Positions 24,153-26,214 of a stretch of 64,000 bases of DNA are shown here, piece by piece. The notes under the pieces are model-generated. The model had not been told where the DNA came from. It searched no databases and saw only the letters and a list, made by a program, of their open reading frames with translations. Every line of letters starts with the position of its first letter. Position 1 is the stretch's first letter. The position numbers and the translations under genes were made by a program. Origin of the DNA: Symbiobacteriaceae bacterium (lineage in GTDB: Bacteria > Bacillota > Sulfobacillia > Symbiobacteriales > Symbiobacteriaceae); the NCBI GenBank assembly GCA_029239785.1, contig JARBUG010000018.1, forward strand, positions 1 through 64,000, written 5' to 3'.

Positions 24153-24280
24153 ACCCAGCGAACATGCGTATAACCCACGGGTAAAAAGGGGAATTGGGAA
24201 TAATTGGGGAATCCCCTCTGTGTTGCACTCGCAGAGCGTTCTTGGGGGGACGCAGCGAGACTGTTTTGGGGGGGAGTACC

Positions 24281-25045
24281 ATGAGCCCTGTGGAGCGGAG
24301 ACCGAATGAGCGGGCCATGCACGAGACCTTTCTGGTCATTAAGGCCACGCCGGCCGACATGGGGAGCCGGCCGCTCAACGGCCCCTTTGCCACGCCGGAC
24401 ATTACCGTGGGCCCCGACGGGCGCCCGCGGGTGGTGGTCTGGAACCTGGGCACTCGCCCGGTGGAGGGGGTTGTGACCGAGTTCGCGGCCGTACCGGCGG
24501 GCCAGCCCATCAAGCCCGAAAACTGCAAACCGGTCGGCATGGGGAATGTGGCCAACATTCCCGCCAACAGCTCTGTGACCGTCACCTGCCAGGCCATATG
24601 GGCGAGAACCTCGCCGGCCGACGTGCTTGTGGTCACCACGTATCACCCGGACCTGGACCCGGTCAAGGCGGCCTGTGACCCGCTGGCTGACCGGCACGTC
24701 GGGCAGATGAACTATGCCTGGGCCGGCGCCTGGGAAGGCAAGTGCGGCGGGGCCGCGGGCTTCAAGGTGCGGGTGGAAATCCGCCCGGCCAACAAGGGGC
24801 TCTTCCGGGTGCGGCTCTTCCAGTCGATTGAAGGGCGCATGCCCGGCAATCCGCAGGTCGACCGGATCATGGCGCCCAACGGCGTCCAGTTCCGCTGGCT
24901 GGAGATCACGTCCACAAGGCGTGACGACTGGGAAATGATCATGCAGGACAACGGCCGCATGTCGATGCGCCTGCGCAGCCGCCTTCTGGATGGGACAAAC
25001 AAGCCTGACACCGAGGTGACGGGCGGCATCGAGCGGGTCGGGTAA
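24281..25045 (+). CDS. Hypothetical protein with CARDB-like beta fold
   Basis: About 254 residues, no signal peptide. The middle part (PRVVVWNLGTRPVEGVVTEF, then IPANSSVTVTCQAIW) reads as an immunoglobulin-like, CARDB-type beta sandwich; Cys pairs are present (ENCKPV, VTCQAI, KAACDP, GKCGG). The C-terminal part (RPANKGLFRVRLFQSIEGR) is another beta-rich segment. ATG 24281 follows GGGGGGGAG. An identical pattern to a known enzyme is not seen. It could be a spore or surface component, but no export signal supports this. Confidence 0.65.
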   Translation: MSPVERRPNERAMHETFLVIKATPADMGSRPLNGPFATPDITVGPDGRPRVVVWNLGTRPVEGVVTEFAAVPAGQPIKPENCKPVGMGNVANIPANSSVTVTCQAIWARTSPADVLVVTTYHPDLDPVKAACDPLADRHVGQMNYAWAGAWEGKCGGAAGFKVRVEIRPANKGLFRVRLFQSIEGRMPGNPQVDRIMAPNGVQFRWLEITSTRRDDWEMIMQDNGRMSMRLRSRLLDGTNKPDTEVTGGIERVG

Positions 25046-25093
25046 AGGAACTGAGGCAATACGAAACCTGGAGCGGGCTGCGTAAATAAAACA

Positions 25094-25136
25094 GAGCACC
25101 CTGTGCCACAAGTGTGGGCACAGGGTGCTCTTCTTC
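25094..25136 (+). terminator. Intrinsic terminator
   Basis: GAGCACCCTGTGCC pairs with GGGCACAGGGTGCTC around loop ACAAGTGT, followed by TTCTTC. Confidence 0.85.
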
Positions 25137-25155
25137 GCGTGGGACATTATTTGGC

Positions 25156-25182
25156 CACGGATTTCACGGACCTGCACGGATT
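25156..25182. repeat. Outer inverted repeat, left arm
   Basis: A 27-base unit beginning CACGGATTTCACGGA and ending TGCACGGATT. It matches the reverse complement of 25524-25550 except for two bases in the middle. Internally it is three imperfect copies of a (T)CACGGAtt phrase. Confidence 0.9.
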
Positions 25183-25360
25183 AACGCCGTTCTCCAGTCT
25201 GGTTACTGGGGTTCCCAAGGCCGGGCAAACCCCTGCGAGTACTGATTACACAGATACCCAGGAAGTCGTTCCATGCCAATAATATACATTATGACCAAGA
25301 ACGATATATCCCGGTGTCAGTGTCATCTCCCAAGAAAATCCGGATTCCGGAAACTTTTCT
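25183..25360. other. Spacer inside the nested repeat element
   Basis: No gene is supported. The stretch is visibly more AT-rich than its neighbours (AATAATATACATTATGACC) and contains another GATTACACAGATAC phrase resembling the inner repeat. Confidence 0.5.
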
Positions 25361-25389
25361 GCCGCAGATGACGCAGATCGCGCAGATAC
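25361..25389. repeat. Inner inverted repeat, left arm
   Basis: A 29-base unit made of GCAGAT phrases (GCCGCAGATGACGCAGATC then GCGCAGATAC). It pairs with 25443-25471 at all but about two positions. Confidence 0.9.
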
Positions 25390-25442
25390 CATGAGAGTCT
25401 ATCCAGGTCACCAATGACAAAGTTGGCTGGATCGTTTACCCA

Positions 25443-25471
25443 GTATCTGCGGCATCTGCGTCATCTGCGGC
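25443..25471. repeat. Inner inverted repeat, right arm
   Basis: Reverse complement of the left inner arm (ATCTGC phrases: GTATCTGCGGCATCTGC then GTCATCTGCGGC). The two arms flank a 53-base central loop. Confidence 0.9.
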
Positions 25472-25488
25472 AAAAATAGAGTCACGAC

Positions 25489-26175
25489 TCACAAACCAGG
25501 TACCCTGACTGGAAGGCCAGGGCAATCCGTGCATCTCCGTGAAATCCGTGACGAAAAAACTGACTTCAACTGATGGGCGATCTCTCGGCGTCGAAGCAGA
25601 CCTTCAGGCGCATGTCGCTGAGTTGGAGGGCTTCTCGCCCATCGCCGCCCCACCGGCGCCAAGTAACCAACCCACCGCCTCACCAGGTCGGCGGCTACAT
25701 AATCCGGCTCCACATGCCCCCAGCCCGCCCGATGCTCCCCCAGGCTGCCCTCGCCCCACCCGGTCCGCACCAGTACCTTGACGGCGCCCACAGCGTGCGC
25801 CGCTAACATATCCGTCCCGCCCACGTCACCGACTACCGCACACCTGGACAAGTCCAGCCCGTGCTCAGCCGCCGCCCGCTGCAACATGCCGGGCCGGGGC
25901 TTACGGCACTCACACCGGTCATCCGGATGATGCGGACACACATAGGCCCCGTTTAGCCCGTAGCCTGCGAACTCAGCCTGGAAATCCGCCTCGGTCGCAT
26001 TGCCGAGGCTAATCTGCCATTGGTTTGTGAAGGCAAACACCTTCACTCCCGCTGCCCGGAGCCGCTGCACCGCCGCAAGCGCCCCCTCGTACGGCACAAA
26101 GTCCCGCGGGTGGATAAATTGTCCGGTGCCGCCAATGGTGCCATCTCGGTCGAGGAACACGGCCTGCAAGTTCAT
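25489..26175 (-). CDS. HAD-superfamily hydrolase, GmhB/histidinol-phosphatase type
   Basis: About 228 residues. The catalytic motif FLDRDGTIGG has Asp9 and Asp11; motif II is FAFTNQWQ; a zinc-binding Cys/His cluster CPHHPDDRCECRKPRPGM and motif GDVGGTDM follow, as in D,D-heptose bisphosphate and histidinol phosphatases (HAD-IIIA). Substrate is not determined. ATG 26175 has GGGAGGGG 7 bases upstream. The family usually ends near residue 185-190; the last ~25-30 residues (from about VFSSRISRR) are read from the outer inverted repeat, so the C-terminus appears to run into that element. Confidence 0.85.
   Translation of the reverse strand: MNLQAVFLDRDGTIGGTGQFIHPRDFVPYEGALAAVQRLRAAGVKVFAFTNQWQISLGNATEADFQAEFAGYGLNGAYVCPHHPDDRCECRKPRPGMLQRAAAEHGLDLSRCAVVGDVGGTDMLAAHAVGAVKVLVRTGWGEGSLGEHRAGWGHVEPDYVAADLVRRWVGYLAPVGRRWARSPPTQRHAPEGLLRRREIAHQLKSVFSSRISRRCTDCPGLPVRVPGL
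25524..25550. repeat. Outer inverted repeat, right arm
   Basis: AATCCGTGCATCTCCGTG then AAATCCGTG, reverse complement of the left outer arm with two mismatches. It lies within the 3' end of the HAD hydrolase gene. Confidence 0.9.
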
Positions 26176-26214
26176 GGCAAATCCCCTCCCTGACTGTTCG
26201 ATACGACGCATAAA

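Follow-up and report, generated by a model that had tools for sequence, protein, structure and literature searches.

Among the closest described systems are the REP doublets of the REPIN-RAYT system (PMC3116915), which, like the element reported here, are small gene-less intergenic palindromes built of two inverted repeats, present in many copies, probably mobilised in trans and lacking target duplications. The two differ in that here no RAYT was found, the arms are tandem arrays of three phrases, the linked gene encodes a PD-(D/E)XK nuclease instead of a Y1 (HUH) transposase, and the elements are nested. REPs carry a GTAG or CGTC tag (PMC3733652), and two short imperfect palindromic REPs in inverted order were not seen in the arms of our family. 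The MITEs of classical DNA transposons are also non-autonomous and share terminal inverted repeats with a gene-bearing relative, but here the gene-bearing form showed no DDE transposase, no target-site duplications turned up, and the ends are conserved between lineages in their grammar and not in their sequence. The intervening sequences of 23S rRNA and their IVP genes (for instance the Coxiella IVS, PMC4990558) are small, selfish single-gene cassettes with inverted ends, and tandem-phrase arrays lie beside IVP genes too; however, the protein and the phrase grammar are different ones, and GxxExxY cassettes lie between protein genes. Finally, free-standing PD-(D/E)XK homing endonucleases belong to the same superfamily as GxxExxY and are likewise encoded by a small mobile cassette; one of them, I-Bth0305I, is among the weak fold matches of GxxExxY. 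GxxExxY, in contrast, is best matched by Cas4 (SSO0001) and lambda exonuclease folds, has no intron or host-gene target, ends in phrase arrays and is accompanied by plentiful gene-less copies.

The window, i.e. the whole 64 kb stretch of DNA that was analysed, contains an element that we would assign to a family recognisable by its ends, in which a T-rich lead is followed by a head (GCC or ACC) and three tandem CRCNRA phrases of 9-10 bp, the two ends being inverted relative to each other. Four inverted arms with three CRCNRA phrases each are present in the window together with the T-rich lead and the GCC/ACC head, and a GxxExxY-bearing form occurs in the same genome.

Nested palindromes in the window

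Two nested pairs of inverted repeats, proposed in the initial annotation of this DNA, were recovered, the outer arms matching at 25 of 27 positions and the inner arms at 27 of 29, around the 53-nt loop that had also been reported. In an inverted-repeat comparison within the window the pairing of the outer arms continues over 67 nt (73%) and that of the inner arms over 34 nt (91%). Folding of the region as single-stranded DNA gives -99.2 kcal/mol, against -53.6 +/- 4.7 for dinucleotide shuffles (z = -9.8). The whole window contains four arrays of three CRCNRA phrases, and these are exactly the four arms. Arms are classified by phrase as A (CACGGAT), B (CGCAGAT), C (CGCGGAT) and D (CACAGAG/CACTGAT), type E being an A arm with a 10-bp step, to which the outer arm of the window belongs. 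The features are, with their basis in brackets:

25093..25131, plus strand: 15-bp perfect hairpin just left of the element and outside it, the probable terminator of the upstream gene
25140..25155, plus strand: left outer terminus, T-rich lead GGGACATTATTTGG (sibling-arm logo; same lead in the gene-bearing copies C34 and C88)
25156..25182, plus strand: outer left arm, tandem phrases CACGGATTT CACGGACCTG CACGGAT, A/E type with 9+10 spacing (inverted-repeat pairing)
25183..25229, plus strand: inner module of the outer (E-type) element, AGTCTGGTTACTGGGG..., pairing with right-side ACCCTGACTGG (sibling E-type elements; DNA fold)
25240..25328, plus strand: degenerate D-type module, core palindrome ACACAGATACCCAGG..GTCGTTCCATG / ..ACCAAGAACGATATATCCCGGTGTC (visual comparison with D-type siblings; fold pairing)
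25316..25501, plus strand: B-type element with one-sided tail GTCACGACTCACAAACCAGGT (homologous copies elsewhere in the genome)
25361..25389, plus strand: inner left arm, GC CGCAGATGA CGCAGATCG CGCAGATAC (inverted-repeat pairing)
25443..25471, minus strand: inner right arm, reverse complement of the inner left arm
25489..26211, minus strand: ORF of a HAD-family hydrolase (alignment of relatives)
25524..25550, minus strand: outer right arm, reverse complement of the outer left arm, overlapping the 3' end of the HAD ORF
25551..25566, minus strand: right outer terminus, T-rich lead CAGTTTTTTCGT read from the right

The feature thus consists of an outer A/E-type palindrome that surrounds a B-type palindrome as well as a degenerate core of D type. 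It is a compound of separately dispersed pieces, because the B part has its own homologues on other contigs: one at C34 (contig 34) corresponds to 25322-25501 of the window at 85% identity, and those at C202, C239 and C140 (contigs 202, 239 and 140) are shorter or weaker. E-type arms like the outer arm of the window are found at the sibling loci L035, L038, L042, L045 and L057, and, judged by eye, the D-type module shares with its siblings, and with many other elements, an inner core in which CGTTCCAGGTCAT and ATGACCTGGAACG enclose an AT-rich stretch. The initial annotation had read an AT-rich spacer on the left side only; AT-richness is confined to about 25264-25310, and this stretch is the core of the third, degenerate palindrome and no plain spacer. 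Likewise, the arms had been placed correctly, but the element reaches further out, with the T-rich leads at about 25140 and about 25566. Neither the third module nor the nuclease gene discussed below had been noticed.

The right arm is, as previously noticed, read into the C-terminus of the HAD hydrolase. The HAD ORF aligns with its relatives only to residue 181 of 240, the C-terminal ~59 residues have no counterpart, and the element (in the right-arm region) supplies the last ~24 codons and the stop. The element has no ORF of its own between 25140 and 25566, where only neighbouring ORFs intrude, and its repeats are inverted with a single weak direct pair, in keeping with the earlier view that it is neither an IS nor a CRISPR. 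The upstream gene (24194-25045) has no Pfam match; it is conserved in the family of the genome and shows 60% identity in G002, the nearest relative.

Dispersed copies and the anatomy of an arm

The host genome assembly (5.5 Mb in 302 contigs, with ~9% of the genome missing) gave 78 BLAST matches to the element, which is therefore not single-copy, and the several copies for which the initial annotation had suggested looking do exist. Exact GGATTTCACGGA words occur 59 times and exact GCAGATNNCGCAGAT words 74 times, while the reversed words do not occur at all. Exact arrays of three CRCNRA phrases number 217, compared with 2 for the reversed pattern, by far the most among 249 genomes of the phylum. 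They make up about 90 palindrome loci; among 88 clusters counted, 45 are simple '+-' pairs and 6 are clearly nested '++--' sets, and both arms belong to the same phrase family in 59 of 72 pairs.

A logo of 188 arms gives the order within an arm: a T-rich lead (GGGRCA-TTTWTTT-N), then GCC or ACC, three phrases of 9-10 bp, and the inner modules. The GGGACATTATTTGG-type lead is present in nearly all sibling arms, with the consensus GGGRCA-TTTWTTT-NGC. The phrases follow the grammar CRCNRA, three in tandem per arm, and the two arms of a pair face inwards; single arms are not hairpins, each pairing with the opposite one. Several copies lie directly after terminators or stop codons. Insertion beside terminators was considered and dropped, because the 40-nt windows next to the arms fold no better than those further out, if anything worse.

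At contig 34 (L018, 8385-8950) three tandem copies of ~212 bp of a gene-less phrase palindrome stand beside a GxxExxY gene, which suggests tandem amplification. A second dispersed mosaic repeat, with the ORF read-through VYDAPAPAGFTWLRTPLPSAHP, adjoins many phrase elements (L035, L066, L018, L016, L038, L045).

GxxExxY genes between phrase arrays

The host genome has five GxxExxY loci (TIGR04256; PF13366, PDDEXK_3), of which C34, C57 and C247 are intact and C88 and C198 are degraded, one by an internal deletion and one to a remnant. None of the five is more than about 350 bp away from phrase arms. Because C34, C88 and C198 represent homologous copies of a single gene-bearing element, the loci count as three independent lineages, in all of which phrase ends bracket the gene. 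When unpaired arms in this genome were inspected for other genes between arms, GxxExxY ORFs alone recurred. Contig 57 stops ~ten bases past the stop codon of its GxxExxY gene (L074, 12058-12553, a D-type element), so that such cassettes probably break assembly.

The association extends well beyond this genome. Across named genomes, 80 GxxExxY loci were collected, distributed over Planctomycetes, Desulfobacterota, Chloroflexi, Acidobacteria, Verrucomicrobia, Bacteroidota, Cyanobacteria, Methanosarcinales and other groups. The family can reach 14 copies in a single genome. In a test that uses no motif and is thus agnostic to sequence, 36 of 76 loci have inverted repeats straddling the gene, against 9 of 580 shifted windows taken from these loci. 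The straddling arms are phrase arrays (CGCCAAG, CACAGAG, CGCAGAT, CGCAAAG, CACGAAT, CACGAAA and so on), most of them CRCNRA plus a short linker, which bears out the remark in the initial annotation that similar phrases occur in unrelated bacteria. Exact arrays of three CRCNRA phrases lie at most 400 bp from 51 of the 80 genes, compared with 27 of 351 shifted windows, in a test that is partly circular in that the CRCNRA pattern was written after the straddling arms had been viewed. For 34 of the 80 genes such arrays stand on both sides and face inwards; upstream arrays are 43 plus to 8 minus, downstream ones 36 minus to 9 plus. Fresh GxxExxY copies, not used before but drawn from the same genomes, have CRCNRA arrays in 32 of 47 cases (2 of 47 far windows) and straddling repeats in 25 of 47 (3 of 921 with permuted flanks). 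About a third of the GxxExxY genes have no CRCNRA array within 400 bp, some of these having other phrases. Within the phylum of the host, four of the six array-rich genomes carry GxxExxY, against 13 of 249 overall (P = 6e-5). G116, a genome of the same phylum, has 19 CRCNRA arrays and no GxxExxY match; its elements may possibly have outlived, or may lack, their nuclease. No relative of the GxxExxY query was found in viral contigs, and a phage collection contained one phage genome with a relative, Halogranum tailed virus 1 (two records), at 32% identity.

In the protein alignment D71 and E81 are invariant and K83 nearly so, i.e. the PD-(D/E)XK signature with an intact catalytic motif. The AlphaFold2 model is confident (pLDDT 96.6), and its best matches among solved folds are the Cas4-like SSO0001, lambda exonuclease and MGME1, at TM-scores of 0.44-0.53 normalised by query length; a search of solved structures by sequence found no GxxExxY relative. 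The model suggests that GxxExxY is a PD-(D/E)XK nuclease with a Cas4/lambda-exonuclease-like fold, the modest TM-scores being such that superfamily and sub-type are suggested and not activity.

A comparable arrangement surrounds a different gene. Inverted tandem-phrase arrays straddle 19 of 29 IVP (four-helix-bundle, PF05635) genes of the phylum (L232-L261), with words such as GGAAGTTGGAGGTTGGAAG, AGCAGTCAGCAGTCAG and CGAAGTTCGATGTTCGAAG in a grammar that differs from that of GxxExxY, and CRCNRA arrays were found at none of 30. Phrase ends are therefore not unique to one protein. In the host genome itself no IVP genes were found, in a search without a positive control, although the family was detected elsewhere.

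Many GxxExxY ORFs start inside the left phrase array (L142, L145, L202 and others), and N-termini such as NRQDAKDAKR, HRGTEAQR and NRRGAENAER are probably translated repeats.

Mobility and competing explanations

Comparison of related genomes supports the mobility of phrase-ended elements. In Bacteroides finegoldii a cassette (CACCACAGAGGACGCAGAGGACACGGAGG...GxxExxY...CTCTGTGACCTCTGTGTCCTCTGTGGTG) lies between radA and the next gene, a FAD gene; in Parabacteroides the cassette is absent and the gap between the two genes is 13 bp. Similarly, Sphingomonas parapaucimobilis has a GxxExxY cassette with GCGAAGG phrases between fabD and fabG that is absent from S. paeninsulae. Gene-less palindromes occur at many sites in B. 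finegoldii with the same termini as the gene-bearing elements, so that terminal inverted repeats common to both forms are found there as well as in the host genome, and the left and right arms agree, by eye, within several elements even where the elements differ from one another. One gene-less element, absent from Phocaeicola, separates gmd from fcl in both B. ovatus and B. finegoldii. In G002, which belongs to the same family as the host, the upstream gene is followed directly by groES, with no element, HAD gene or OadB. The relatives without an element are about 70-76% identical in the flanks, too diverged for exact insertion junctions. The target-site duplications anticipated in the initial annotation did not materialise, direct repeats at 45 isolated pairs not being in excess over shuffled flanks. 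Within-genome empty sites for gene-less elements gave no clean case among mosaic dispersed repeats, nor did the tandem phrase repeats of Pseudoalteromonas megaplasmids, and a search for empty sites by way of G148 met with no close relatives of that genome.

The most convincing explanation, in our view, is that the nested palindromes of the window are non-autonomous members of a mobile family, that GxxExxY is carried by the gene-bearing form of this family, and that the ends are probably recognised and mobilised by that nuclease. Behind this lies comparison between sequences: the dispersed copies and their nesting, the specific association of the phrase grammar with GxxExxY, the ends shared by both forms in one genome, and elements missing from the same site in relatives. 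The small non-autonomous mobile element that the initial annotation had considered is well supported, and we infer that the gene-bearing form is autonomous. GxxExxY would recognise the tandem phrases, which may be extruded into a hairpin or cruciform, cut at them, and mobilise or copy gene-bearing elements as well as, in trans, gene-less ones. Landing would be in AT-rich or T-run intergenic sites without target duplication, and nesting might result from the insertion of one element into another or from recombination between the two. Against this explanation count the disproportion between ~90 element loci and only three intact nuclease genes in the host genome, the GxxExxY genes with no CRCNRA array nearby, the arrays without GxxExxY in G116 and the lack of target-site duplications.

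The same disproportion would be easier to understand if the palindromes were mobile and GxxExxY were a passenger or accessory, some other enzyme of the host or element moving both forms, as integrases move cassettes. This is the main rival because IVP genes, too, lie between inverted tandem-word arrays of another grammar, and the arrays without GxxExxY in G116 speak for it as well. Nonetheless, we consider it rather unlikely: the grammar is specific to the gene, CRCNRA arrays accompanying GxxExxY and not IVP, no other gene recurs inside the arms in the host genome, and RAYT (PF01797) is absent. That absence also bears on a REPIN-like origin with spread by a RAYT (TnpA-REP) transposase, for which one could cite paired inverted short repeats in many intergenic copies without target duplications. 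Membership fails because no RAYT was found, PF01797 having no match in the genome (of which ~9% is missing from the assembly) while control genomes were positive; moreover, the arms are tandem triple phrases and not the single imperfect hairpin REPs with GTAG/CGTC tags (PMC3733652). We give this origin hardly any credence. Scarcely more probable is that the palindromes do not move and are held by selection as functional structures of RNA or DNA (terminators, sRNAs, nucleoid sites). The hairpin is indeed very stable, the arms pair well, and a position just past terminators or stop codons would suit such a role, but hairpins are not enriched beside elements, copies are nested and mosaic, and the element is missing from the corresponding position of the nearest relative, as it is in relatives of B. 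ovatus and B. finegoldii. The structured RNA that the initial annotation had offered as an alternative found no positive support either, since no Rfam family reached threshold and the only matches were sub-threshold miRNA hairpins, of the kind that any long hairpin yields.

If GxxExxY does act on these ends, the unexplained intergenic phrase repeats of MAGs and the nuclease become one testable system, in which the predicted target is three CRCNRA words, probably as a hairpin. The link would account for hard assembly breaks and for palindromes nested between genes, and may also explain false N-termini such as NRQDAKDAKR as translated phrase arrays. The parallel arrays at IVP genes suggest a more general principle. 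In the open-access literature searched, phrase strings returned only coincidences in unrelated animal work, and this widespread nuclease family was scarcely mentioned, GxxExxY only in passing and PF13366 seldom. The occurrence of such ends across many bacterial and archaeal phyla points to a class of mobile DNA that is widespread and apparently not described before. Tentatively, the class could be drawn wider, to take in cassettes with a single gene together with gene-less hairpins derived from them, both ending in inverted three-word arrays, the words varying freely between lineages and the grammar being specific to the protein (CRCNRA for GxxExxY, another for IVP), again in bacteria and archaea; we regard this broader definition as quite possible but short of likely.

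In megaplasmids of Pseudoalteromonas shioyasakiensis (L332, L333) a tandem repeat of CACAGAG phrases lies between an EAL gene and a methyltransferase and varies between strains.
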